A stretch of DNA of 25,982 nt from a virus: positions 1 through 25,982 of IMG/VR virus record IMGVR_UViG_3300013101_000074; one strand, 5' to 3'. The translations under genes and the position numbers were made by a program. Shown here in pieces: positions 4,941 through 24,456 of the stretch; position 1 is the first letter of the stretch, and every line of letters begins with the position of its first letter. The notes under the pieces are model-generated. The model was not told the origin of the DNA. It searched no databases and saw only the letters and a program-made list of their open reading frames with translations.

Positions 4941-6065
4941 TTAACCCTTGATGGCTACGTCCACGCACATGACACCGAAGTCCTCGACTACGCCGGAGGC
5001 CATTCCGCCCATCAGCTTGCCTTCGAACTGGGGCTTCAGGAGTCCGGAGATCTTGCCCACGGAGATACCATCCTGGTTCCCGTAGTCGAAGGTCTCTTCG
5101 TTCCAGTCAGCCTTGCCGATGTCAGCGATACCCATTGCCTGAGCACCACAGAAGAGCATACGACAGCCGTCGATAGTTCCAGATGCGCCCCACTTACTGC
5201 CGGAGGCCAAACCACGAGTGTTGTACACGTGCCGGTACTCGGAGATCGCCATACCATCAACCATGACGGTGTCAGTTCCCTTGAACAGTTCGTTCACAGG
5301 CCCACGCTGACCAGCATTGCGGACGTTGGCGAGGTAGTCGCTATCGGTACGCAGGTTGGCCATCGCCATCGGGGTAAGGAACACATGGAAGAACTCAATG
5401 CCATCACTGGTCCGAATCGCGCGCATGTACTTCTCTTTCGCAAGAGCTTTCAGCTCGACGAGATCGGCCCATCCGATGGTGTCGGTAGCGGTGATCGCAT
5501 TCTGCGCCCCACCGGGAGTGAGAACACCCGCGATCTTGGCGAAGTAGCGACCAGCGGAAGGAGCCTTCACATCGGCTGCATACTCAAGCAGCGGAAGATC
5601 GGAACCCACACGGGTTGCACCATTGGTGTGCAGACTGTAAGCCACACCTGACAGAGTCAGAAAACCGAGCTGATCGTGACGGTCGGCGACCCAGTAGGCC
5701 AGCTTGTCGCGGGACTGCTCACGGAAGGTGACGACAGACCGCTGGTCGGCCATCTTACCCTTGGAACGGTTCGCATTACGGAGCTGATCGATCTGAATGA
5801 CCTGATCTTCGGAGGTCAACGCCTCTTCATTACCTTCCAGCGTTCGATCTCCGGCCTTACCATCGCCGTCAATATCGTTAACCAGGGTAATAACGGCGCG
5901 TGCGCCTTTCTTGGTCTTGGTGAGTTCGCTGATGCGCTGTACCAGAGCATCCTGGCCGGAGCCAGTGAACTTGTTGAGGAACGAGTAGTTCCTTGCTTTA
6001 CGCCAGAAGTCCATCGACCAAATGGTCAATTCTTCGTCGGTAAGTGCGGCGAAATTTGTTTGCAT
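4941..6065 (-). CDS. Major capsid protein, N4 gp56-like family
   Basis: This 374-aa protein forms the icosahedral shell. The N-terminal segment has the features of the N4 gp56-like capsid family: SMDFWRKARNYSFLNKFTG, then ELTKTKKGARAVITLV, GDRTLEGNEEAL and IDQLRNANRSKGKMADQRSV. RDKLAYWVADRHDQLGFLTLSG follows at about 120-140. The later part contains FHVFLTPMAMANLRTDSDY and an insertion-like YRHVYNTRGLASGSKWG. The length agrees with the family (about 350-400 aa). The start at 6065 is an ATG; the sequence just before it is TGAGGGCATAGAA, which gives GAGG 8 bases upstream. It follows the scaffold gene after a 198-base structured leader and is followed by the decoration-type gene and a terminator. 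Confidence 0.93.
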   Translation of the reverse strand: MQTNFAALTDEELTIWSMDFWRKARNYSFLNKFTGSGQDALVQRISELTKTKKGARAVITLVNDIDGDGKAGDRTLEGNEEALTSEDQVIQIDQLRNANRSKGKMADQRSVVTFREQSRDKLAYWVADRHDQLGFLTLSGVAYSLHTNGATRVGSDLPLLEYAADVKAPSAGRYFAKIAGVLTPGGAQNAITATDTIGWADLVELKALAKEKYMRAIRTSDGIEFFHVFLTPMAMANLRTDSDYLANVRNAGQRGPVNELFKGTDTVMVDGMAISEYRHVYNTRGLASGSKWGASGTIDGCRMLFCGAQAMGIADIGKADWNEETFDYGNQDGISVGKISGLLKPQFEGKLMGGMASGVVEDFGVMCVDVAIKG

Positions 6066-6263: not shown

Positions 6264-7376
6264 TTACGCAGTTGTTCTGAAGTCACCACGCAACTTTTTC
6301 AACTGATCGAGAGGCATATTCTCAAGATCATCGAGTGACAACTTGTCCGGATCGACGGTTGCTTGAAGCCCACCGGTATCCGAGTCATCACCCACACCCT
6401 GAGTATTCGGAGCCTGAGCGTTCGCGGCATCCGTAGCCTTTTTAAGAGCTGCGGCGGTCTGCTTCTCCTTCGCTTCCTTCTGAGCCTTGGTCTCCTTATC
6501 CAGATCTTTATCATCCTTATCTGCATCCAGCTCGTCTTTACTCTCCTCAGCCGGGATGTAAGTACGGACAGCCTTGACCAACGCCTGCGTCGGCGTGTAC
6601 TTACCAGTGGCTAAAAATCCACCACGCAGCTCCTGGATTTCAGCCACCAGGGCATCGTCGTAGTTGGTGTTATCGTTGGGGTCGAGCTGAGGATACATCT
6701 CCTCAATCTGCTCCAACGCCACATCCAACCGCATGGACTCACGGGTCGCCTGGGAGGTGTGCAGATCCATATCCTGCGCCTCTTTGAGGTACAGACTCCG
6801 CTCCATCTTCCGCTGTTCCGCCCGCAAACTTGCGGCCTTATCCGTGTCCCCATCCTTGTACGCCTCGGCGATCTGCGTATCCAGCTCCTCTATCGTACCT
6901 TCGGCAGTCTTCCGTTCGTGCTGCTGCTTGGCCGCAGCAACTTGCCGAGCCTTTGTATCAGCGTTCTCACGAGAAGCCTCAATGTAGTCCAGCTTCTTCT
7001 GGAGGGCTGCTGACTTCGCTTTCTCCTCGTCGATGATCCGGTTCTTGGCGTCGAGACGTGACTTGGGTATGCGGTGATCGTCGTCATCCCCGTCATCATC
7101 ACCGTCGCCTGCCTTACCATCTCCGCTCTTTCCATCTCCATCTCCAGCCTTGCCTTTGTCTTCTGCCGCAGCTTTCGCTGCTGCTTCATCTTCCGACTTT
7201 TTGGCAAGTGCTGCATCCTCTTCCTCCTTTTTCTTGTCCGCCTCAGCGGCGGCGTCAGCCGCAGCCTTACCTTCCGCGTCGAGGACAGTCTTGTCGTCGG
7301 CGGGGGTCTCTATGAGGTCATCTCCTCTTGCAGCCGCTACAGCGGCGGGATCGTCCCAGTTAATTTCCGGTGGCAT
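6264..7376 (-). CDS. Scaffolding-type capsid assembly protein
   Basis: This 370-aa protein is almost entirely charged and helical. Residues about 38-80 are Ala/Lys/Glu heptads. Residues about 73-102 are a low-complexity stretch of GDG and GKAGDG units ending in runs of Asp. HRIPKSRLDAKNRIIDEEKA then opens a long coiled coil to about 215. The C-terminal part has a second charged helix (DELDADKDDKDLDKETKAQ) and ends in LSLDDLENMPLDQLKKLRGD, a likely capsid-binding tail. Composition, lack of an enzymatic motif, and a place between portal and major capsid genes fit a scaffold that guides shell assembly. The ATG at 7376 has GGAGA 8 bases upstream. Little sequence conservation is expected in this class, so the call rests on composition and context. 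Confidence 0.82.
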   Translation of the reverse strand: MPPEINWDDPAAVAAARGDDLIETPADDKTVLDAEGKAAADAAAEADKKKEEEDAALAKKSEDEAAAKAAAEDKGKAGDGDGKSGDGKAGDGDDDGDDDDHRIPKSRLDAKNRIIDEEKAKSAALQKKLDYIEASRENADTKARQVAAAKQQHERKTAEGTIEELDTQIAEAYKDGDTDKAASLRAEQRKMERSLYLKEAQDMDLHTSQATRESMRLDVALEQIEEMYPQLDPNDNTNYDDALVAEIQELRGGFLATGKYTPTQALVKAVRTYIPAEESKDELDADKDDKDLDKETKAQKEAKEKQTAAALKKATDAANAQAPNTQGVGDDSDTGGLQATVDPDKLSLDDLENMPLDQLKKLRGDFRTTA

Positions 7377-7407: not shown

Positions 7408-7635
7408 TTACCCGGTGATGTCTTTAACAGCCCACATCACACACTCTTCGAGCTTGGTTCTAGCCAGACTCAGTTCTCTCGACGCACCAAAGGAGCTGAG
7501 GTACTCATGCAGATCCAAGGCTTTGTCCTTGACCGTCTGCATCTGTTCCTTCTCCGTCTCGGACAGCACCTTATACTGGTGCCTCATTACGTTATTGGTA
7601 GCGCGTTTGTCGTCCGTACTGTTGAACTCTGTCAT
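7408..7635 (-). CDS. acb2: Acb2/Tad1 hairpin-family protein, putative anti-CBASS cyclic-nucleotide sponge
   Basis: This 75-aa protein has a short N-terminal tail and then an antiparallel helical hairpin: RHQYKVLSETEKEQMQTVKD is helix 1 (residues 18-37), LHEYLSSFGASRELSLARTK covers the turn and start of helix 2, and the C-terminus is LEECVMWAVKDITG. The HxYxxLSxxE start, the S-R-x-LSLA-x-T-x-L-E-E helix and the final MWAVKxIT are the signature I know for the Acb2/Tad1 domain, whose members bind cyclic di- and trinucleotides and so blunt CBASS or Thoeris signalling. Tyr21 and Lys36 are 15 residues apart, the same spacing as Tyr11 and Lys26 that I recall as cGAMP-binding in PaMx33 Acb2. The start overlaps the portal stop as ATGA, and scaffold follows 31 bases on. 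Function is inferred from family. Confidence 0.78.
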   Translation of the reverse strand: MTEFNSTDDKRATNNVMRHQYKVLSETEKEQMQTVKDKALDLHEYLSSFGASRELSLARTKLEECVMWAVKDITG

Positions 7636-9917
7636 TTCTTCGGTGCTCCTGGTTTAGCCCCTGCGGGCTTTGGGGTGGGTTTATCCGCCTTCTTGTTCTC
7701 AACTTTGAGTTTTCCGGCGTCATTCTCTGATTTCTGATCGAGTGCGCGGTCAGCCGTTCCCTGCTTACCGGCGTCACTCGCTCCCTGCTGCTCCACGGCT
7801 TTGTCGGCAGTTCTGGCCTTCGTGAGTTCCATCACGTGCTTGGAGCGAATCTCCTGACGCTTCACCGCAAGCTCTTCGCGGGCAAAACGCATCTTCTCGT
7901 CGATCTCGTACTTATCCAGCTCAAGCGTTGCGAGATCCTTCTCATAGTTGTGCTTCACCTCGGCCATCTTGATCTGATCATCGACGGTCATCACCTGACC
8001 CTCAAGCTCGCCGCCCGGTCCCTGCTCAGCGTCGATCATGGAGATAGCTGTCTCTGCGCGGATCTTGGCAGTCTCAGCCTCGGTCTTCTGAGCCTCAAGC
8101 TGCTTGATCTGCATCTCCAGGTCCATGAGAGCCTGCTCTTCCTCAGTGGGGCCACCGTCGTTCGACATCTGTTCCAGCAGCTCCTGCTTATCAGGCAGGT
8201 GGCTGGCAGCGATGATAGTCGTGTCGGGAATCTCAACACCCAACTCTCTGAGCTGGATAGCCTGTTGAAACTGCGACTCTTCGAACGTCTCACGTGCGGG
8301 AACGCTAGTGACTACGACTTCGTACTTACCGATGCTGAGGTCGCGGGCAATCTGCCCTTCGGGGGTCACCTCATTGATCGTGACCTCTTCCGTCTCGTTG
8401 CCAACCCCCTTGGTGATCTGCAGAATGCGCTCCTCGCGCATGAAGTCCTGCATCAGCTCCATGATATTCCGAGCAAGGATCATGCGGGACTTGTTCAGAT
8501 TGTGGAGCACTTTCGTGAAGTTCGTACTGCCCTGCGCCTGTTTCGCCTGGATAGCCTTGGCGGCTACGTCAGCCCTGTCAAACCCACGCATCGAGTCAGA
8601 CACCATCGACATCTCTTTGAGGTCGTTGTTCAGGAGCTGACTGATCCGGTCGAGGCCGGTGGGGACTTGGTTGGGAGTAATCTTCTCAAGCGGCTGCGAC
8701 CCGGCGCGTCTCATCAGAACAAGGCCGGTCTCCGCGCCACGTTCCTCAAGCTCCTCGTCGGTCATGTTGGTGAGCTGCCCTTCTTCACCCTGCCAACCGC
8801 TATTCGCAGTTGTGTTCACGATGTGAAGCTCCTGCGACCGGGTCTTGTTGTACATGTTCTGAGGGTCGATCATGTTCTCAACGAGCCCGATAGTCTGCCC
8901 GTGCCGGAAGAACGGGAAGAAAGGCACAACCGTAAAACTGCGATAAGGGCTCTTCGAGTCGTGCAGCAGTGTATCGTTGCACGTTACAGTCCAGTGGATC
9001 TGCTCAACCCGCTTCTTAATGATAGCGACGTTGAACTCCTGCTGGATGAGCTGGACCTTCTCTCGGGGCATCCCCGGTGAGATCGGGCGCACTTCCCCGG
9101 TACGCAAGTCTACGAAGTGCTCCTGCATGGCAATTTTCTTGTACTGCCGCTCAAGTATTCTGTAGACCCGTCGATACTCATTTACCTCGCGCTCTACGCC
9201 GAACTCGGTAAATCGTGTGTTCTCACCACCGAAGGTATCGGGGCGAATATCCAGGAAGTCATAGCCCAGGTAATTCTCGTTGTAGGCCATCGAACGCAGC
9301 TCGTCGGCTGCTCCCTTACCATAGAACATCTCTATGTCCTGAATGGACAGCCACTTCGTGACAATCACATCCTTCCATGACTTGGGGTCGTACTCTTCAG
9401 AGTCAGGGTCCAGGACTACGTTGCGGGGGTTGAGCTGGGTAATTTTCACATCACCGAAGATGTTCTCTTCGTAATTCATGCGGCAGTCGAAGTAGCCGCG
9501 AGAGGTAATTACACCATCCTCGAAGACATCTGCTTCTTTCTCGCCGAGACGGTTCCAGTTGGTTATGTGGATGAACGTCTGGTTGAGGGCGTTGGAAGTC
9601 TCCATGTTGCCGCCACGTATCGGCTTGAACCCGATATCGGCGACTTCGTTCATCTGTTCACCAAGGATGGCCGCGACTGCGGGGAGCACCTTGTTGATAG
9701 TGAGTGCCGGTCTACCCTCGGCTTCGAGGTCGGCTTTCGTCTTTGCGGCCCAGTGATCGCCCCGGAAATACCGGTCGCAGACCTTAGCCTTCTCATTAAA
9801 GAGAAGATGGCCGTTGTCGCGTGCGTACACGTACCGCTGGTTGTTTACCCGCACCTTTTCAGTTTTGATCATGCTGTTACGGGGATTCGATGCTTTTGTA
9901 AGGTCGTTCGTTCTCAT
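7632..9917 (-). CDS. Portal protein, P22-like/SU10-like
   Basis: This 761-aa protein should form the dodecameric ring through which DNA enters the head. Motifs typical of P22-type portals are visible: CDRYFRGDHW (about 47-56), GRPALTINKVLPAVAAILGE (68-87), FEDGVITSRGYFDCRMNYEE (131-150), NPRNVVLDPDSEEYDPKSWKDV (about 160-180), SFTVVPFFPFFRHGQTIGLVE and DPQNMYNKTRSQELHIVNT (the wing-to-crown helices). The C-terminal 160 residues are a long Glu/Lys/Gln-rich coiled coil and a Pro/Lys tail, which would form a barrel. ATG at 9917 overlaps the previous stop as ATGA and GAGG lies 8 bases before it. The length fits the P22 family (about 725 aa). It is followed by the Acb2-like and scaffold genes. Confidence 0.93.
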   Translation of the reverse strand: MRTNDLTKASNPRNSMIKTEKVRVNNQRYVYARDNGHLLFNEKAKVCDRYFRGDHWAAKTKADLEAEGRPALTINKVLPAVAAILGEQMNEVADIGFKPIRGGNMETSNALNQTFIHITNWNRLGEKEADVFEDGVITSRGYFDCRMNYEENIFGDVKITQLNPRNVVLDPDSEEYDPKSWKDVIVTKWLSIQDIEMFYGKGAADELRSMAYNENYLGYDFLDIRPDTFGGENTRFTEFGVEREVNEYRRVYRILERQYKKIAMQEHFVDLRTGEVRPISPGMPREKVQLIQQEFNVAIIKKRVEQIHWTVTCNDTLLHDSKSPYRSFTVVPFFPFFRHGQTIGLVENMIDPQNMYNKTRSQELHIVNTTANSGWQGEEGQLTNMTDEELEERGAETGLVLMRRAGSQPLEKITPNQVPTGLDRISQLLNNDLKEMSMVSDSMRGFDRADVAAKAIQAKQAQGSTNFTKVLHNLNKSRMILARNIMELMQDFMREERILQITKGVGNETEEVTINEVTPEGQIARDLSIGKYEVVVTSVPARETFEESQFQQAIQLRELGVEIPDTTIIAASHLPDKQELLEQMSNDGGPTEEEQALMDLEMQIKQLEAQKTEAETAKIRAETAISMIDAEQGPGGELEGQVMTVDDQIKMAEVKHNYEKDLATLELDKYEIDEKMRFAREELAVKRQEIRSKHVMELTKARTADKAVEQQGASDAGKQGTADRALDQKSENDAGKLKVENKKADKPTPKPAGAKPGAPKK

Positions 9918-10078
9918 GGAGCTGCCCTCAAGCCTCTGCGCTTCTTTTTCTCATTGGGGAGGTGCGTCTCCAACAGCTCCTGTGCTTCCTCTTTCGATAC
10001 CTTGGGTTTCTTCTTCAGTGGTTTAACCTTCGGATCTCGTAAAACGTCGTCCATCCATCGTGTTATGCCGTTCTTCAT
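9914..10078 (-). CDS. Small basic protein, 54 aa
   Basis: The true start is probably the ATG at 10078: GAGGA lies 7 bases upstream and the ATG overlaps the previous stop as ATGA. A TTG ten codons further upstream has poorer support. The protein (MKNGITRWMDDVLRDPKVKP, then KKKPKVSKEEAQELLETHLP, then a Lys/Arg-rich end) is strongly basic in the centre and C-terminus, with one short acidic helix. It has no recognised family. It could bind nucleic acid or help portal assembly, since it is coupled to the portal gene by a 4-base overlap; this is inference. Confidence 0.7.
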   Translation of the reverse strand: MKNGITRWMDDVLRDPKVKPLKKKPKVSKEEAQELLETHLPNEKKKRRGLRAAP

Positions 10079-10281
10079 AACTGGTTCCTCAACCAAGTCC
10101 TTCCACAATCTTGACAGTATAGCCGCCGCGAAGAGCCGATAATAGTCCTTCCAGCTCCGGGGTTTACGTCAGAGCAAGGACAAATATACCCTTCTTCGGC
10201 CCACTGGGAAACCCACTCCCCCTTGTCGAAGTGCCAGCTACGGGCGTCCGTAACTGACAACTTGGTGAGGTTATGCGTCAT
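10075..10281 (-). CDS. Small zinc-ribbon-like protein, 68 aa
   Basis: The ATG at 10281 follows directly after the stop of the upstream gene with no gap, and its own stop overlaps the next ATG as ATGA. Two Cys pairs are present: YICPCSD (Cys34 and Cys36) and YCQDCGRTW (Cys56 and Cys59), about 20 residues apart, a layout that suggests one bound zinc. The N-terminal half has several Trp (SWHFDKGEWVSQW). Such short ribbons are common unknowns in phages. No family is named; the protein may bind nucleic acid or another protein. Confidence 0.7.
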   Translation of the reverse strand: MTHNLTKLSVTDARSWHFDKGEWVSQWAEEGYICPCSDVNPGAGRTIIGSSRRLYCQDCGRTWLRNQL

Positions 10282-10602
10282 TCAGATCGCGTTTTCGTTC
10301 AACTTGTGATCTCCGCACCAATCATCCCCGAATACAGCGGGATAACCCCCCATCGTCGGAGAGTGCCTGCGACACCGCCCAAACGGTTTATTCTCGGCGT
10401 TCGCCTCTCCACTGGACACCTTCTCCACAAAGAACATGCACGTGCTACAGCGCATACCTTTCGCTCTGTGTTTCCACGGATCTTCGCTCATAGTTATTTC
10501 CTCTGTTAAAAATAAAAGGTCTGGTTTGTGTATACAGCCGAAGCCCCCTCGACCCAGACAGTTCAAACCACATACGGGGCAACTGAAATCCGCAGCCTTC
10601 AT
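10282..10602 (-). CDS. Cys-rich two-part protein, 106 aa, with internal start
   Basis: I place the start at the ATG at 10602 because it overlaps the thyX stop as ATGA and GAGG lies 5 bases upstream; an in-frame ATG at 10647 would overlap thyX by 49 bases. Residues 1-25 hold CPVCGLNC and a further Cys. The second part, from Met38, contains MRCSTCMFF, then GRCRRHSPT, then DDWCGDHK, a four-Cys module met in many phage orphan proteins (CxxCxFF, CRR-x-P, DWCGxxK). A very strong ribosome site precedes Met38 (see the site at 10489-10504), so a 69-aa shorter product is likely too. A metal-binding role is inferred; the partner is unknown. Confidence 0.72.
   Translation of the reverse strand: MKAADFSCPVCGLNCLGRGGFGCIHKPDLLFLTEEITMSEDPWKHRAKGMRCSTCMFFVEKVSSGEANAENKPFGRCRRHSPTMGGYPAVFGDDWCGDHKLNENAI
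10489..10504 (-). promoter_or_regulatory. Strong internal ribosome binding site
   Basis: On the minus strand AGAGGA (10504-10499) is followed by a 7-base spacer and an ATG (10491-10489). It lies in frame inside the 106-aa Cys-rich gene and would start a 69-aa protein that holds only the C-terminal four-Cys module. The bases before it are unusually A/T-rich for this operon (CTTTTATTTTTAACAG). Confidence 0.6.
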
Positions 10603-11303
10603 GTCTTCCTCATGAAATCTTCGAACGCCTCGTAGCTCACCGGACATTTCTCCTGGATGATCGAAGCGATGGCTTCCGCATAGACGCGGATCTCGTACTG
10701 AGCGTGGTGATGCAGCCGCTCATTCAGGAACCTGAACCAGTTAAGCATGTTCGCCGTCACGAACATCTTCGAGTACATAGCGACGGGGAGCACACTGCGT
10801 GCAAGCTCCCTTGCTACTCCACGTTTCAGCAACTCCTGGTACGCCTCATACGACGCCGAGTTCGCTTCGAACATTAGTTTGCGGATAGCGTGCAGCTTCA
10901 GCTCCTCATCCCCAGTGAGCTTCTGCCCGGGTGTGATGTCCCTGCTCTGCTTGTTATCCGCACTCTGGACGCCTATCACTTCGATGCCGGGGACGTAAAA
11001 CTCCTCGGGCAGCTCCGTGTAGCGGGCCGACATCTCGTTGTAACTCTGCGTCCGATGCCGGTGCCACTGCCGGTAGGTGAAGATAGGAGCTTTGACCTCG
11101 AACTTGAAGGTCACCATCTCGAACGGTGTGCTATGCCCGTTCTTCATCAGATAGCGGATAAGCCCCCGGTCATTCTTCTCATCCTCGCCGGAACGCCACG
11201 CAGCGTCGAAGCTGGTGCGGGCAGCCCGCACAACGTCAATATCCCCGCCCATGTGGTCGATATACCGGAGGTAGCCATGATCGAGCAGATTGACCTGCTT
11301 CAT
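10599..11303 (-). CDS. thyX: FAD-dependent thymidylate synthase
   Basis: ThyX makes dTMP from dUMP with methylene-tetrahydrofolate, using FAD and NADPH. The signature RHRTQSYNEMSARY is present at residues 82-95, matching the ThyX motif RHRxxSxNExSxRY. NGHSTPFEMVTFKF (about 55-68) is the upstream substrate-binding segment, and ELARSVLPVAMYSKMFVTAN, then LNWFRFLNERLHHHAQYEIR, are the later conserved blocks. The length, 234 aa from the ATG at 11303, is normal for the family. That ATG overlaps the previous stop as ATGA and has GGAG just upstream; an in-frame GTG 33 bases further upstream is less likely. Phages carry thyX to feed DNA synthesis. Here it is coupled to a probable dNTP diphosphohydrolase. 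Confidence 0.96.
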   Translation of the reverse strand: MKQVNLLDHGYLRYIDHMGGDIDVVRAARTSFDAAWRSGEDEKNDRGLIRYLMKNGHSTPFEMVTFKFEVKAPIFTYRQWHRHRTQSYNEMSARYTELPEEFYVPGIEVIGVQSADNKQSRDITPGQKLTGDEELKLHAIRKLMFEANSASYEAYQELLKRGVARELARSVLPVAMYSKMFVTANMLNWFRFLNERLHHHAQYEIRVYAEAIASIIQEKCPVSYEAFEDFMRKT

Positions 11304-12499
11304 TTCTCCACCCCCGCTTCCTTGTTGTTCTCCCACTCGTCCTTACGTTTCAGTCTCCGCCCCAAATCACGAAACCTCTCTTTCTCCTGAGCATCCAGCT
11401 CGTCGTACGGGGGGATTTTATTTATCACCGTATTCACATTCCGGTCAATGCGACTACCCACTTTGAACCCTTCGCGCTTCTCCGTCTTGAAGTCACGCTT
11501 CTTCACCTCACTAGCTTCGTCAACCGGCTCGTGGCTCCGCATCTGCAACTCCAGTATAGCCATCGCATTCCATGCAGCGTGCGCGAGGTGAGTCAAACCA
11601 AACTCGGGGTCAATGATCTCTCCCCGATTGTGTTTGATGAGGTGACGACGCATAGCCCCCTGATAACGAGCCTCCGCCTTGGAAACTTTCAACCACCCGC
11701 CGTCGCTATACTTCGCAGCCCCGTGGGTGGCAATCTTGCCAATGGCTTCGAGCGCACGCGGGAAGTCCATGTCGATCAGCTCCATACGAACTTTCTCATT
11801 ATCATCCTTCGCGCCGGGAGATTTCAAATCCATCGTCGATGCGGTGTGGGTGGGGCCGATGTCCCCCATCGTAGCCCCCCCAGACAAATGGTTAAAAGCC
11901 ATCTCGTCAACCTTATCCTGCAGAGTACCTTTCCCCGGGAACGTCTCGTCCAACCTGTCTTTGAGATCCTCAAGGTTCACCGGCTCCTCAATGAACACAG
12001 TCTGAGCAGCGGGGCGTGTCATCTCAGGGTAATACTTCTTGCGGAGCTGCTCGTACCGTACGGGTGTGAGATTATAGAGCACGGACTTATCGGGGAAGAA
12101 GAACTTACGGGATCTGTGGGTTCCGGGCTTCAAGAAACTATCCCGTGCGTCAGTACCGCCATCGGGCGGGCTCCACATCTCGATCTGAGCCAGAGTAAGA
12201 TTCAGATCCATCTTCGTCAGCTCCTCCTTCTTCACGAACATGATGGAGAGACTCTCGGAGTTCCCGTAGATCACAGGGATAAGTCCCTTGTTCTGAGCGA
12301 AGCTGCTCAGCACGTTGTTTATGGTATGACGGAGTTTCGTCCACCACACCTGCGTATCCTTGGAAGTGGGGTTAGCAGCCGGGTCCAACTCATCGTGCCA
12401 CTTCACCAGCTTGTCCTCGATGGGGTACTGCTGCGTATCGATCAACTTCATTACGTGCGAAAGAACTGTCTGCGCTGCTCGCTTATTCAGGTTTTTCAT
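11300..12499 (-). CDS. Protein with dATP/dGTP diphosphohydrolase-like (DUF5664, MazZ-type) domain
   Basis: The 399-aa protein has an unknown N-terminal half (1-225) and, at about 232-320, the DUF5664/MazG-like block: KVRMELIDMDFPRALEAIGK, ATHGAAKYSDGGWLKV, RYQGAMRRHLIKHNRGE and GLTHLAHAAWNAMAILELQM. Members of this group are annotated as dATP/dGTP diphosphohydrolases, and the cyanophage S-2L enzyme MazZ is related. The usual form of this domain is a short stand-alone protein, so the long N-terminal extension (with SFLKPGTHRSRKFFFP and RPAAQTVFIEEP) is odd. The C-terminus is Lys/Arg/Glu-rich and probably unstructured. ATG at 12499 has GAGGA 8 bases upstream and the gene runs into thyX by ATGA. 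A role in nucleotide pool control is inferred. Confidence 0.78.
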   Translation of the reverse strand: MKNLNKRAAQTVLSHVMKLIDTQQYPIEDKLVKWHDELDPAANPTSKDTQVWWTKLRHTINNVLSSFAQNKGLIPVIYGNSESLSIMFVKKEELTKMDLNLTLAQIEMWSPPDGGTDARDSFLKPGTHRSRKFFFPDKSVLYNLTPVRYEQLRKKYYPEMTRPAAQTVFIEEPVNLEDLKDRLDETFPGKGTLQDKVDEMAFNHLSGGATMGDIGPTHTASTMDLKSPGAKDDNEKVRMELIDMDFPRALEAIGKIATHGAAKYSDGGWLKVSKAEARYQGAMRRHLIKHNRGEIIDPEFGLTHLAHAAWNAMAILELQMRSHEPVDEASEVKKRDFKTEKREGFKVGSRIDRNVNTVINKIPPYDELDAQEKERFRDLGRRLKRKDEWENNKEAGVEK

Positions 12500-12549: not shown

Positions 12550-14388
12550 TTATGCGGCCATCGAGCCTCCAGCCCGCTTGCCTCTTTTCCTTGTATGACT
12601 TTTCAATTTATCCTTCCAAGATACAACTTTCTTCACTCTGGGCCGGTGCGGCGTGGACGCCTTGTTCACCATGCGTACGAGCCACGCCAACGCATCGACC
12701 TGATCGTCATGGACCCCGTTGGGAAAGCGAAGCAACTCCGCGATGAACTCCTCGGTCCACGGCTGGTCAGCCGGGAGTATGATCTTGCCCTGCTGCGTCC
12801 AACCTTGCGCGGGCCTCGCACGTGCGACCTTGTCGTTTATCGGCAGCAGAGTCTCATCGAAGGGACAGGGATAGCCCCCGTGGGCATTGTCAGAGAGGAG
12901 CCTCATCAAATTCGGCATTATCGCCATCTGAATCTGTCCACGCTCAATTCCGCACATCTGGAGCTTGTCCTGGTACGGTTTCATACTTTCGAAGACTAAT
13001 TTCGCGGGGTCGTCGGTGCGAGCGCGTATCCGGTCCACTAAGTGGAGCCTCCCTTCGAAGTCAAGCGCAGCTATGAGCCCCACAGTCCAGTCGTTGGCCT
13101 GCTTGAGACCGATTGCCAAGTCCCACGCGGCGTAAACGTGCCATCTCTGCCACGGTGCGACGTGGGCTTCGAGCCGAAAATTCTGCCTTTTGAAGATACT
13201 GCCCTCATCCGGCACCGGTTTCTGCATAAACAGCGCATTCCAGAAGCGTGGCTGCGTCGATTTCTTCTTCCTCCGATAAAACGCCTCGTCATACCGCGCC
13301 GGGTGCAGTGCCGCGTCCTTTTTACGCACCAACCGTACTGAGGGGTCGTCCTCGTCCGGTGTCGTGGTGAGATGACCCCTACCATCTATAAACTCATCCT
13401 CCTCAGCTACCGCTGGGAAGCTCACCACGTCCCAGTTGATAATATCTTCGCGGTCCTGCTGCATCGCCTTCAGCCGGTCCCGGCTGTACTCCCTCATAAT
13501 CTCCGTAGAATTCGGGTCGGCCAAAGTAATCTCACACTCGTCCTCCTGCTCGACCACCTCTTTCATCGCATCCATCTCCTGCTGGATGAGACGACCGGCG
13601 AGGTCCAAGTCAGACCACCTCGTCATGGTCAGCATGACTCCTCCACCCGGAGAAAGTCTCGTGTCCGCAACTGAGTCCCACCAGTCCCAGATACTTTGAA
13701 GAGTCGTCTCGGAGTCCGCCTCTGTAGCATCTTTCACCGGGTCGTCGATGTTAAAGATATGAGCGCCCTTACCGGTAGCACCACCGCCGACACCCACCGG
13801 CAAGTACATCCCCTGCTCTGTGGTGTACCACCCGTCAGTAGCCTGTGCGTTGGGGTCAAGTCTGGTCTTCGGATACAAGGCTTGATACTCATTACTGCTG
13901 AGGGTTGACTTGATCCAACGTGAAAAACCCATAGGAAGTGAGACTGCGTAGGACGCAGAGATAAATTCCCAGTTGGGGTGCTTGCCGAGCACCCACGGAG
14001 GGAACGCCTTGCTCACGATGGTGCTCTTCCCCGTACGTGGCGGCTGGAAGAACATGATGCGGGGGGACTGCTTATTCTCCACATCAATTACGAACCGTTC
14101 GAGCTTCGCGCATATCAACTTATGCACCCAACCGGCGTCATAGTTGGGGATGAAGTTCGTAATGAAGTTTATGAGCCTTCTTCGAATGAGTTCACGCCGG
14201 AACAACTCCTGCTTCGCTGACTCAGCCTGATGGTCAATAGGCGTGCAGGTTCTGCACACCACGGATCTGGTATGCGGTTTCGTTCCTTTGAGGAAACTCC
14301 GGAAAGTCTTATAGGCAGTTCCGCACAGCCTGCAGATTTTAGTGTGCTGCTTCTCGTAGATGTACGCTTGTTCTGCGTGGGTAGTCAA
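12550..14388 (-). CDS. terL: Terminase large subunit, with N-terminal zinc ribbon
   Basis: This 612-aa ATPase and nuclease packages DNA into the head. Walker A is QPPRTGKST (about 115-123) and Walker B HIFNIDDP (about 207-214); TMTRWSDLDLAGRL follows the coupling region. The nuclease domain shows YAAWDLAIG, then DFEGRLHLVD, and DDQVDALAW near the C-terminus. Unusually, an N-terminal CRLCG (Cys19, Cys22) and VCRTC (Cys45, Cys48) form a probable zinc ribbon. No ATG precedes the ATPase domain in frame. The TTG at 14388 overlaps the upstream stop as TTGA and has GGGGA upstream, so it is preferred; a TTG at 14415 is the alternative. The C-terminus is basic (KSHTRKRGKRAGG). Confidence 0.92.
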   Translation of the reverse strand: MTTHAEQAYIYEKQHTKICRLCGTAYKTFRSFLKGTKPHTRSVVCRTCTPIDHQAESAKQELFRRELIRRRLINFITNFIPNYDAGWVHKLICAKLERFVIDVENKQSPRIMFFQPPRTGKSTIVSKAFPPWVLGKHPNWEFISASYAVSLPMGFSRWIKSTLSSNEYQALYPKTRLDPNAQATDGWYTTEQGMYLPVGVGGGATGKGAHIFNIDDPVKDATEADSETTLQSIWDWWDSVADTRLSPGGGVMLTMTRWSDLDLAGRLIQQEMDAMKEVVEQEDECEITLADPNSTEIMREYSRDRLKAMQQDREDIINWDVVSFPAVAEEDEFIDGRGHLTTTPDEDDPSVRLVRKKDAALHPARYDEAFYRRKKKSTQPRFWNALFMQKPVPDEGSIFKRQNFRLEAHVAPWQRWHVYAAWDLAIGLKQANDWTVGLIAALDFEGRLHLVDRIRARTDDPAKLVFESMKPYQDKLQMCGIERGQIQMAIMPNLMRLLSDNAHGGYPCPFDETLLPINDKVARARPAQGWTQQGKIILPADQPWTEEFIAELLRFPNGVHDDQVDALAWLVRMVNKASTPHRPRVKKVVSWKDKLKSHTRKRGKRAGGSMAA

Positions 14389-14663
14389 GCGTATCCCCGA
14401 ATGTAGATACTGCAACCCGGGTTCATGACACGAGCCAGGACTGAAGCCATAAATACCGGGAAGGTCGCTAAATCGTTAGCCTCCGGTGTGATGTACAACA
14501 GATCTGCGTGGTGGTGTTTCAAATCATCACCCACCGCGCAAGTCTGAATCAACGCCTTCTCACTGAAATACATCTGCTTCGCAGATCGTGCGGCGTGCTC
14601 ATCTTTATACACAACCAGAATGGAAGACTCACAGTCTTCCTGGTGGAACTTACAAGGTGTCAT
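14385..14663 (-). CDS. Hypothetical protein between the terminase genes, 92 aa
   Basis: The ATG at 14663 has GAGG 9 bases upstream, and the gene ends in a TTGA overlap with the large terminase. The protein begins MTPCKFHQEDCESSILVVYK and has KHHHADLLYITPEANDL in the middle and MNPGCSIYIRGYA at the end. Alternating short helices and hydrophobic strands (ILVVY, ADLLYI, CSIYIRG) suggest a small alpha/beta fold. I do not recognise the family. Its place between small and large terminase genes suggests a late role in packaging, or an accessory cargo gene. Confidence 0.75.
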   Translation of the reverse strand: MTPCKFHQEDCESSILVVYKDEHAARSAKQMYFSEKALIQTCAVGDDLKHHHADLLYITPEANDLATFPVFMASVLARVMNPGCSIYIRGYA

Positions 14664-18541: not shown

Positions 18542-18736
18542 ATGATAATGTCAATGAAAACAAAGAACCCCCGTAAAGTGCCGGTCACAATTCATCTTGA
18601 CCGTCGCACATACATAGAGTTGAAGAAACGTGCAGCCTATGAAGGACGTACCATGTCCTCATACGTATTTCGAATGTTGCAGACCTCATTCACTCATGCA
18701 CCCAAGCGCGAGAGTGACACACAAGAGGCAGCATAA
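18542..18736 (+). CDS. Ribbon-helix-helix DNA-binding regulator, 64 aa
   Basis: The core VPVTIHLDRRTYIELKKRAA, then YEGRTMSSYVFRMLQ, is a typical Arc/CopG-type ribbon-helix-helix: a beta strand that reads the major groove (VPVTIHLD) followed by two helices. Such proteins bind as dimers to short operators and often regulate their own operon. In-frame ATGs at 18542, 18548 and 18554 are all possible; GGA lies 5 bases before the one at 18548. The stop is one base before the start of the primase-helicase gene, so both are probably one unit. The GTATCA array and the TGAACAGTGTTCA palindrome upstream are plausible targets; this is inference. Confidence 0.85.
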   Translation: MIMSMKTKNPRKVPVTIHLDRRTYIELKKRAAYEGRTMSSYVFRMLQTSFTHAPKRESDTQEAA

Positions 18737-18737
18737 A

Positions 18738-21242
18738 ATGGGCTTCAAAAAGAAAGACAACAAGCTGAACATACTCAAGCTCTGTGACGAAGATGCCTTA
18801 CTCCCCACATCGTTATGCGTGCTCAAAGGCAAGCGACCTGTACGCAAAGAAATAAAAGGGCAGAAGCCCAGTGGGGATTGGGACATTATACCCTACCCCA
18901 ATCTTGCCATGTTCGAGTGCATGTACGCCGTCGTAGCCGACATTGAAACACTCGAATCAACGATCAAAGCTCTCGCTGAATCACCGTACTACTTCCCTAT
19001 CATGGGTAAGCCCAGCGAAGCAGTAATCAACAACTACGTTAATAGACTCAACCCTCTGGATATACCTGAGATCTATCGCCGCTCTAACGACAGTGAAGCG
19101 GGACCACGCTCTATCATGGAGATGCCGGGTCTCTTCTTACCTATTGATGTAGACACCATGACCATTGAGGGCTACACCACTAATAAAGCAGGGGCTAAGA
19201 AGGCATTAAAGAAACTGTGTGAGGACATACCTGAACTCACCGGAGTAAGCTGTGTCTACCAGCACACCACTAAAGCAGGTATGACCAAAGATGCAGTAAA
19301 GATTCGCTTCTATTTCCTCTTGGACACACCTACATTGCCACGTGATATCAAGGCATGGCTCAAGAACAAACCTATTGATAGGAGCATTTATGGAATTGTT
19401 CAACCTATCTACACAGCTAATCCTTACTTCAACACTAATGCAGTTGCCAATCCTATCCCTGATCACCTGCGTATTGGCTCTATCATTGGTGATCTGGAGT
19501 TTGTTTCTGTTCCCACCGCGCACAAATCCAAGACTGCGGACATTGAAAAACTTCATAAAACATCCTTTCAAGACAAACTCGCAACCGACCCCATACTTCA
19601 CGAATTGTTCTCGAAAGATATGGTTAAAGCTGAAAACGAGAAAGTCCCCGGCACGTTCAATCTCAATGAGTGTCCGTGGGCCGATAGTCATACTGATGGG
19701 CAAAGAACTGGTGCCGCATACTTCGCACCTCATTATAACAACCGCAAGTCACCGGGATTCAGTTGTTTTCATGATCACTGCAGAGAACACAATATTCATT
19801 CACTGAAAGCATTCCTTGGCATCAGGATGCCTCACCCTAATGACAAGTCTCAAAAAGATCCTAAATACGCCAAGCAGCCCAAGAACGAAGAAGCAGCAGA
19901 GTGTGGGACAGTGAGCGACCGCTTCGCCGACCCGGTGTTCTATGAAGATATCGATAGATTCGACACCGCATTTGATACATTAAAGAAACGCTTTATTTAT
20001 GTAATGGATCAAGAGTCTTTTTATGATATGTGTTCTCACCGCCTTTATAAGAAAGAAGCCGTAGATAACATGTACAGGGCTCACTACAATCAGGCCAATG
20101 GCTTACTTGGAGTTCAGCTCCTGAATGACATGTCAGCTATCAAGACCACCTCCATGATATACCTGCCGGGTGAGTCCCCCATCGTGGAATACAACAACGA
20201 ACTGTGTGTCAACATCTACAATCGCCTTGGTACACCGGCACCTATACCCGGAGCTGTAGAGATCTGGACTGAACACATGGAGTACCTGTTCCCTGATGAA
20301 GTAGAGCGTGAACACCTCTATAGTTGGCTGGCGTTCTGTCTTCAGAACCCTGCCATCAAGATCAACTATGCTGTCCTGGTCGCAGGGATATCGAGGAACG
20401 GTAAAGACTCTGCCTTTGAACCCTTCAAGAGAGCTATGGGCATCAAGAACGTACGTGAGATAGCAGCCGTGGAGTTGAAAGAAACCTACACGGACTTCCT
20501 CATGAACACAAAACTGGTAGTGATCCAGGAAGCTCAGAATTTTGACAAGGCCAGTATTGAGAATAAACTCAAGCCCATACTTGCATCACCTCCCGAGATG
20601 TTACGCATCCGGATGTTTGGTAAGGGCTTCTTTGAAACACCCAACATCGTACAAGGTCTCTTCTTCAGCAACCACTACAACGCCCTGAAGATATCCGAAG
20701 GTGATGGCCGGTACTACGCCCTGTGGTGTGGTATGAGTCCTCAATCTGCAACGTATTACCAGAGGTATTGGGACTTCATCAACGACACAGGCACTAGCCA
20801 CATCATGTACTGGCTCCTGGACAGGGACATATCTGAGTTCAACCCGTATGACTCTGCTCCCCAGACTGCGTACAAGCGAGGCATTCAGGATCTCTCACTG
20901 AGCAACACAGAACGTGGGATCAAACACATGATCGAGACGTTCGAGCCGCCCTTCCACCGTGACATGGTTGATATCCACCACGCAGTAAGTAGTGGGCAGA
21001 TACAACACGTGTCGGAGAAGAGCATCGCCATAGCACTGGCTGACATGCACTGTGAACGTAAACGCATCAAGCACATGGGCAAATTGCACAGTGTCTGGTG
21101 TATCCGCAATCAATCGAAATGGGCTAAGAAATCACCCAGATGGTGGTATGAGGAGTTAAAAGCTCGTGGAACTAAAAATGACAAAGACGAGGGTTCGGAA
21201 GCTGCGGGAGCAGATGGAGAGCCGTATGAGGAGAAGGATTAA
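18738..21242 (+). CDS. Primase/SF3 helicase (D5-like), 834 aa
   Basis: ATG at 18738 has GAGG upstream and is one base after the regulator stop; the frame reads further upstream but overlaps that gene. N-terminal region: FLPIDVDTM (Asp137, Asp139) and KIRFYFLLD (about 188-196), motifs expected of an archaeo-eukaryotic primase fold. A zinc-type patch, ECPWADSH (about 311-318) and SCFHDHCRE (342-350), follows. The helicase domain has Walker A GISRNGKDS (550-558), Walker B LVVIQE (593-598) and motif C LFFSNHYN (641-648) of superfamily 3, with GDGRYYALW after it, as in the DUF5906/NrS-1-polymerase group. The protein should open the duplex and prime DNA at the origin. It overlaps the next gene by 17 bases. 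Confidence 0.9.
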   Translation: MGFKKKDNKLNILKLCDEDALLPTSLCVLKGKRPVRKEIKGQKPSGDWDIIPYPNLAMFECMYAVVADIETLESTIKALAESPYYFPIMGKPSEAVINNYVNRLNPLDIPEIYRRSNDSEAGPRSIMEMPGLFLPIDVDTMTIEGYTTNKAGAKKALKKLCEDIPELTGVSCVYQHTTKAGMTKDAVKIRFYFLLDTPTLPRDIKAWLKNKPIDRSIYGIVQPIYTANPYFNTNAVANPIPDHLRIGSIIGDLEFVSVPTAHKSKTADIEKLHKTSFQDKLATDPILHELFSKDMVKAENEKVPGTFNLNECPWADSHTDGQRTGAAYFAPHYNNRKSPGFSCFHDHCREHNIHSLKAFLGIRMPHPNDKSQKDPKYAKQPKNEEAAECGTVSDRFADPVFYEDIDRFDTAFDTLKKRFIYVMDQESFYDMCSHRLYKKEAVDNMYRAHYNQANGLLGVQLLNDMSAIKTTSMIYLPGESPIVEYNNELCVNIYNRLGTPAPIPGAVEIWTEHMEYLFPDEVEREHLYSWLAFCLQNPAIKINYAVLVAGISRNGKDSAFEPFKRAMGIKNVREIAAVELKETYTDFLMNTKLVVIQEAQNFDKASIENKLKPILASPPEMLRIRMFGKGFFETPNIVQGLFFSNHYNALKISEGDGRYYALWCGMSPQSATYYQRYWDFINDTGTSHIMYWLLDRDISEFNPYDSAPQTAYKRGIQDLSLSNTERGIKHMIETFEPPFHRDMVDIHHAVSSGQIQHVSEKSIAIALADMHCERKRIKHMGKLHSVWCIRNQSKWAKKSPRWWYEELKARGTKNDKDEGSEAAGADGEPYEEKD

Positions 21243-23595: not shown

Positions 23596-24456
23596 ATGTC
23601 ACAGACTATTACTGCCTGGAGTAATTCCAGGGCTGATACCTATCTGCTTTGCCCCTTCCGAGCTAAACTTAAATTTAAGGACAAACGTCCTGAGCTTCCG
23701 CGTGAGTTGCCGACAGGCAAGAAAGAACACGCGAATGATCGGGGCTCACGTATTCACGATGCGGCAGAACGCATGGTGACACACTCAGCTCCTATGGTAA
23801 GAGAGCTGCACCACTTTGAGACCGAGTTAGTACGGGCTCAAGACATCTACGTTGGGGACTCCAACAGCATCGAGACCGAGAAGACTTGGTTCTTCGATGC
23901 GGATTGGCTCCCCATCGACGGAAAGGAGTACGACAAGATATGGCTGCGCGTAGTCATCGACTTGAACGTAAGGTTGTCCCCCACGGAAGTGCTGATCATC
24001 GATCACAAGTCCGGGAAGCGGTACAACAACGAAGTGAAACACTCGGAACAGATGTTGCTGTACGTGTTGTCTACTTTCATGAAGTACCCGGAGGTGGAAC
24101 TCGTAACCGCAGAGTTGTGGTATCTCGATCTCAACGAACTCGTTAGTATCACCATGACCCGGCACCAAGCGTTGCAACTGTTTCGTAAGTTCAACAACCT
24201 CGGGGTACGTATCACTTCAGACACCACGTACATAGCTAAGCCCTCACTCCACTCGTGCAGGTTCTGCCCGTATAGATCCGGAGCAAACAAGTGGGTTGTG
24301 GGGACTGGAGAGTGTAAGAGGAATCCGGCAGACAAGACGGAGCAGCCTGATGCACGGTGGCACACCTTACGCAATGAGGGGCTGCTGAAACTGAAAGAGC
24401 TGCAGGAGAAGCGACGTGTCGAGAAAAGCAAGAGCCAGAACAAACAGCGTAGGTAG
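23596..24456 (+). CDS. PD-(D/E)XK nuclease, RecB/Cas4/AddB-like, possible Fe-S cluster
   Basis: ATG at 23596 has TGGAG 6 bases upstream. The 286-aa protein has NDRGSRIHDAAE (47-58, with His54), VVIDLNV with Asp122, EVLIIDHKSGK (131-141, Asp136 and Lys138) and HSEQMLLY (149-156, Gln152 and Tyr156): the ordered motifs of the PDDEXK_1 nucleases (His, Asp, Asp-x-Lys, QxxxY). Cys19 (LLCPFR), Cys221, Cys224 (CRFC) and Cys240 match the N-plus-C-terminal cysteine layout of Cas4/AddB iron-sulfur nucleases. It should cut or trim single- or double-stranded DNA ends, as in phage recombination. The C-terminus is basic. Activity is inferred from motifs. Confidence 0.85.
   Translation: MSQTITAWSNSRADTYLLCPFRAKLKFKDKRPELPRELPTGKKEHANDRGSRIHDAAERMVTHSAPMVRELHHFETELVRAQDIYVGDSNSIETEKTWFFDADWLPIDGKEYDKIWLRVVIDLNVRLSPTEVLIIDHKSGKRYNNEVKHSEQMLLYVLSTFMKYPEVELVTAELWYLDLNELVSITMTRHQALQLFRKFNNLGVRITSDTTYIAKPSLHSCRFCPYRSGANKWVVGTGECKRNPADKTEQPDARWHTLRNEGLLKLKELQEKRRVEKSKSQNKQRR

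Follow-up and report, generated by a model that had tools for sequence, protein, structure and literature searches.

A putative cyclic-nucleotide sponge of the Acb2/Tad1 hairpin family encoded between the portal and scaffold-position genes of a viral sequence record

The window analysed here, which is the entire IMG/VR record IMGVR_UViG_3300013101_000074 (25,982 bases) and probably a fragment of a larger genome, encodes in its head operon a 75-aa sponge-like protein (positions 7408-7635, minus strand) whose sequence assigns it with confidence to the Acb2/Tad1 hairpin family (PF24729). This assignment draws on the PF24729 match, on profile matches to the solved structures of Acb2, Vs.4 and Tad1, and on the hairpin predicted by AlphaFold. 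By analogy with these proteins, it is quite probable that the product is a sponge that sequesters cyclic nucleotides, mainly CBASS signals, without cleaving them, and our best reading is a late-expressed putative sponge for cyclic di- and/or trinucleotides. The family itself is already known; this new member carries an N-terminal motif conserved in its clade and has an unusual genomic address.

The ORF starts at position 7635, stops at position 7408 and encodes MTEFNSTDDKRATNNVMRHQYKVLSETEKEQMQTVKDKALDLHEYLSSFGASRELSLARTKLEECVMWAVKDITG. A preliminary description had reported an ORF at 7408-7635 and left its strand unstated; the ORF exists and lies on the minus strand. The motifs listed in that description are all present (HQYKVLSETE, SRELSLARTKLEE and MWAVKDIT), as is the 15-residue spacing between Tyr21 and Lys36, and its proposal of Acb2/Tad1 family membership was borne out by the HMM match, the profile of the relatives and the predicted fold. 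The PF24729 model (Acb2/Tad1, hairpin domain) matched the protein with an E-value of 6.7e-17 and a score of 61.9 bits (curated cut-off, 27); the PaMx33 Acb2 reference scores 66.1 bits against the same model. Among the PHROG families, phrog_1454 was matched, as was, more weakly, phrog_717, the group in which the authors of the Vs.4 study located Vs.4 homologues (PMC10097602). No second PF24729 gene above the cut-off was found elsewhere within the 25,982-base window. Matches to SAICAR synthetase (19.8 bits, near the cut-off of 20) and purC (17.6 bits, cut-off 189.9) were rejected as helix look-alikes far below PF24729.

Because a single-sequence phmmer search against solved structures yielded only matches to Vs.4 and Tad1 at E ~0.8, which are not significant, a profile was needed for this comparison. 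The profile built from 34 relatives matched solved sponges with E-values of 7e-7 to 3e-4, including Acb2 homolog 43 (9ptq, 7e-7), Vs.4 (8e-5), Tad1 (1e-4) and Acb2 p26 (2e-4). Relatives showing 33-89% identity across the matched segment are carried by 56 viral contigs, and the comparison with close relatives gave pN values of 0.25-0.30 and pS values of 0.71-0.98. This distribution, the excess of pS over pN and the Pfam E-value all indicate that the ORF is not a chance reading frame.

In the AlphaFold monomer, residues 26-47 and 53-74 form two helices (pLDDT ~98) packed as an antiparallel hairpin, the N-terminal 20 residues are of low confidence, and no strand is predicted in residues 1-25. The segment comprising the putative ligand Tyr21, the helix cap and both helices of the hairpin, as defined by this model and by the alignment to Acb2 and Vs.4, corresponds to positions 7414-7575 (minus strand). 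When the model was compared with 350,542 chains using Foldseek, Vs.4, Acb2 and Tad1 occupied 17 of the top 18 ranks (1-14 and 16-18), with probabilities of 0.92-1.00 for Vs.4 and Acb2 and 0.66-0.80 for Tad1, although the E-values of these matches taken alone are above 0.1. The best superposition on Acb2 gave an rmsd of 1.2 and a TMq of 0.69. VIA-align returned Z-scores of 6.9 for Vs.4 and 6.5 for Acb2 (rmsd 1.9 over 59 residues). However, the helical hairpin is a common shape, and unrelated hairpins reach Z-scores of 5-6 in the same analysis; the fold by itself is therefore not decisive.

The Tyr11/Lys26 pair of PaMx33 Acb2, which the preliminary description had cited, indeed occupies residues 11 and 26 in the protein read from the PaMx33 genome, and Y21 and K36 fall opposite Acb2 Y11/K26 and Vs.4 Y8/K23 in an ungapped alignment of the first helix. 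In the crystal structure of Vs.4, cGAMP is contacted by Y8, H11, K23, R79 and F82, and the hexamer interface includes L29, A66, A73 and A77 (PMC10097602). The contact residues correspond to Y21, L24, K36, K71 and T74 in the 75-aa protein, so that R79 is retained as a lysine and H11 and F82 are changed; PaMx33 Acb2 also lacks these two residues (L14 and A88). The interface positions correspond to L42, A58, C65 and A69, and their hydrophobic or small character is thus conserved. Across 18 close relatives, Y21, K36 and T60 never vary, position 71 is K or R throughout, and R53 is present in 17; of 16 more distant relatives, 15 keep Y21 and all have K or R at position 36. R53 and T60 align with R67 and T74 of PaMx33 Acb2. 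The NNVMRHQY and KLEECVMW columns are biased by the peptide patterns with which the contigs were searched; K36, T60 and K71 lie outside these patterns.

Immediately preceding the ligand Tyr, a clade-specific motif, D9-x-R11-x-x-N14-N15-x-M17-R18-H19-x-Y21 (positions 7573-7611, minus strand), was recognized from its conservation in close relatives. In the form D-x-R-T-x-N-N-x-M-R-H-x-Y, it is common to 18 proteins, three of which were obtained by a pattern-free tblastn search of annotated phages. D9 is conserved in 17 of 17 and R11 in 16 of 17 sequences, N14, N15, R18, H19 and Y21 are conserved in 18 of 18, and the first residues of the motif are present in every clade protein that extends so far. 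The DxRTxNNxMRH segment is absent from PaMx33 Acb2. A conserved extra motif of this kind marks a subfamily, whose ligand range could differ.

The genomic context of the gene is that of a head operon. On the minus strand, the terminase large subunit gene (12550-14415; PF03237/PF17289, phrog_38 E 2.3e-93), close to where this series of same-strand genes begins, is followed by genes for a dATP/dGTP-diphosphohydrolase-domain protein and ThyX, three small ORFs and the portal gene, and then by the putative sponge gene, the scaffold-position gene and the genes for the major capsid protein, an SU10-type adaptor and the head closure protein Hc3. The upstream neighbour encodes a P22-type portal protein (7632-9917, minus strand; P22_portal PF16510, E 2.2e-89; ~40% identity to the KPP25 portal), and its TGA stop codon falls within the ATGA that opens the 75-aa ORF (7632-7635, minus strand), confirming the coupling noticed earlier. 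The downstream neighbour (6264-7376, minus strand) begins 31 nt past the ORF with its own AGGAG-like ribosome-binding site. None of the family models in the Pfam and PHROG searches matched its product; we infer a putative scaffold from its place between the portal and major capsid genes, its D/E/K/A-rich composition and its weak similarity (E 1e-3 to 8e-10) to the proteins encoded at the same place in KPP25, R18 and MW202615. The major capsid protein (4941-6065, minus strand) was identified by PF13252 (E 2.5e-38) and by 57% identity to the KPP25 major head protein. A search with Phage_capsid_3 was uninformative, because the model matched none of 24 related records but equally none of the control genomes. 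Promoter and terminator scans remained at chance level and thus gave no evidence of separate regulation of the putative sponge gene. Given the operon and the ATGA overlap, late co-expression with the structural genes, as suggested in the preliminary description, is a fair inference.

Several other loci in the window are worth recording. The interval between the terminase and portal genes (9914-12499, minus strand) constitutes a second cargo site containing several extra genes, whereas KPP25 and R18 have none there; these include the gene for ThyX (PF02511, 1.4e-53) and that for a 399-aa protein carrying a dATP/dGTP diphosphohydrolase domain at its C-terminus (PF18909, 1.8e-26), and they possibly serve nucleotide-pool or modified-base functions. 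The plus-strand gene block encodes a DUF5906 protein (18630-21242) and a PD-(D/E)XK nuclease (23596-24456; PF12705, 4.1e-17).

The nearest cultured relatives are the Pseudomonas phages KPP25 and R18 (portal ~40%; capsid 57% in KPP25). In these two phages, as in phiA008 of Aeromonas, the portal gene and the one after it overlap, with no gene in between. Acidovorax phage AP1 carries a gene for an unrelated 105-aa protein at the portal-scaffold joint (L070:7126-7443), and MW202615 carries a GH108 lysozyme gene at the same joint (L071:6959-7462). No PF24729 gene was found in any of these five genomes, and a portal-based scan of viral contigs returned no matches. The empty joint and the lack of PF24729 in KPP25, R18 and phiA008 indicate that the putative sponge gene is inserted cargo rather than a head gene, and the variable contents of the joint suggest that extra genes, including this one, come and go there.

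In several unrelated phages, family genes lie in or near packaging or head operons, and in others they lie beside recombination or nucleotide genes. Relatives occur between the terminase and portal genes (contigs L007 and L013), directly ahead of a portal-like gene (L019), just upstream of the terminase gene (L018, L020 and L021) and, in Sinorhizobium phage Aussie, between the head-tail adaptor and stopper genes. In Microbacterium phage NoodlelyBoi, gp26 (L064:3983-4225; PF24729, 3.7e-14) is encoded between the capsid protease and the major capsid protein; this protein is annotated as hypothetical and is here matched to PF24729. Family genes follow the holin gene in Bing and PSonyx, adjoin exonuclease/RecT genes in MW202738 and L009, lie near an integrase gene in L005 and, in Gordonia phage Rosalind, are found amid nucleotide-metabolism genes. 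The acb2 gene of PaMx33 is the last in a replication operon that also encodes polymerase, primase and MazG, and the head-operon position of the gene in the window thus contrasts with that of the reference. In another contig (L011:1014-1256), a close relative converges on a head-tail adaptor gene encoded by the other strand. Twenty distinct contigs have a phrog_2 terminase; in 12 of them the family gene lies within 5 kb of the terminase gene on the same strand, compared with 4.5 expected from random placement on a random strand, a difference that is suggestive only, because most phage genes are co-stranded, the null randomizes strands, and several of the contigs are short.

Members of this family hold their ligands uncut: dinucleotides bind between protomers, and a second site accommodates trinucleotides (PMC12043709, PMC10097602). 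Following this model, the 75-aa protein would form a hexamer in which 3',3'-cyclic dinucleotides would sit between protomers, with the Tyr stacked on the bases and the Lys bridging the phosphate, and cyclic trinucleotides would probably be held in the second site. The ligands would be sequestered uncut, so that CBASS effectors, and perhaps also type III CRISPR effectors that use cA3, would stay off. Being translationally coupled to the portal, the protein would appear late, alongside head and packaging products with reported effects on CBASS activation or escape: a staphylococcal CBASS cyclase is activated by RNA from the terminase region, and mutations in the scaffold permit escape from the same system (PMC10686824), and phages lacking acb2 acquire a major-capsid mutation (PMC10419184). 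A portal-coupled putative sponge that is absent from close relatives and recurs near terminase and portal genes allows timing to late CBASS triggers to be tested. The broader proposition, that placement in packaging or head operons repeatedly times PF24729 sponges to late triggers (terminase-region RNA, scaffold and capsid) and that the DxRTxNNxMRHxY motif also alters the choice of cyclic nucleotide, is offered tentatively and is, as a whole, doubtful.

Other readings of the protein were weighed against CBASS-directed sequestration. The protein may mainly bind another signal, either the gcADPR of Thoeris or the cyclic oligoadenylates of type III CRISPR. The hairpin domain and the profile matches shared with Tad1, the binding of cA3 by Acb2 in a separate pocket (PMC12043709) and the near invariance of R53 and T60 are in line with this idea. 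However, the 75-aa protein lacks the N-terminal beta-sheet region of Tad1 and the loops around its gcADPR pocket (PMC12043709), and the Tyr/Lys pair for dinucleotides is fully conserved in the clade, so we regard this alternative as unlikely.

A place between the portal and scaffold-position genes, translational coupling, and the presence of relatives at adaptor/stopper, terminase/portal and capsid protease/major capsid junctions, would also be expected of a minor head or assembly protein, such as a portal-scaffold adaptor, that kept the sponge fold for a role in capsid assembly. Yet close relatives in other phages adjoin RecT, exonuclease or integrase genes, the nearest cultured relatives make a similar head (57% identical capsid) without such a gene, and the ligand-contact residues are conserved, all of which makes an assembly role very improbable. 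That the protein is a degraded or inactive family member retained by chance has slimmer prospects still: two Vs.4 contacts are changed and D72 occupies a position that is mostly H or G in the clade, but the frame is intact and under strong purifying selection, and the family-invariant residues are all kept. Sequestration of mainly CBASS nucleotides thus remains the preferred reading.

Among the known sponges, the 75-aa protein shares with Acb2 of the Pseudomonas phages PaMx33 and PaP2 (PDB 8H2J, 8H2X and 8IXZ) the PF24729 domain, the equivalently spaced Tyr/Lys pair and two long antiparallel helices, but Acb2 is longer (93 versus 75 aa), with a longer stretch between the helices, ends a replication operon and lacks the DxRTxNNxMRH segment. 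Vs.4 of T4 (PDB 7UQ2; phrog_717) is the top fold match, aligns Y8/K23/R79 with Y21/K36/K71 and has the TKL-E--MWA helix in common with the 75-aa protein, although its H11 and F82 contacts are lost here and it is ~20 residues longer between the helices. Tad1 (PDB 7UAV, 8KBB and 8SMD) resembles the protein in its C-terminal helix pair and the RE--A-T--EE-MW motif and differs in having an N-terminal beta-sheet region. The phrog_1454-type PF24729 proteins of Mycobacterium, Gordonia and Paenibacillus phages and NoodlelyBoi gp26, themselves putative sponges, share the SREKSLAMTKLEECVMWAN-type helix and, in the case of gp26, the head-operon location, but have an N-terminal segment of their own (NNFTYHPPK...) and are ~30-35% identical to the 75-aa protein.
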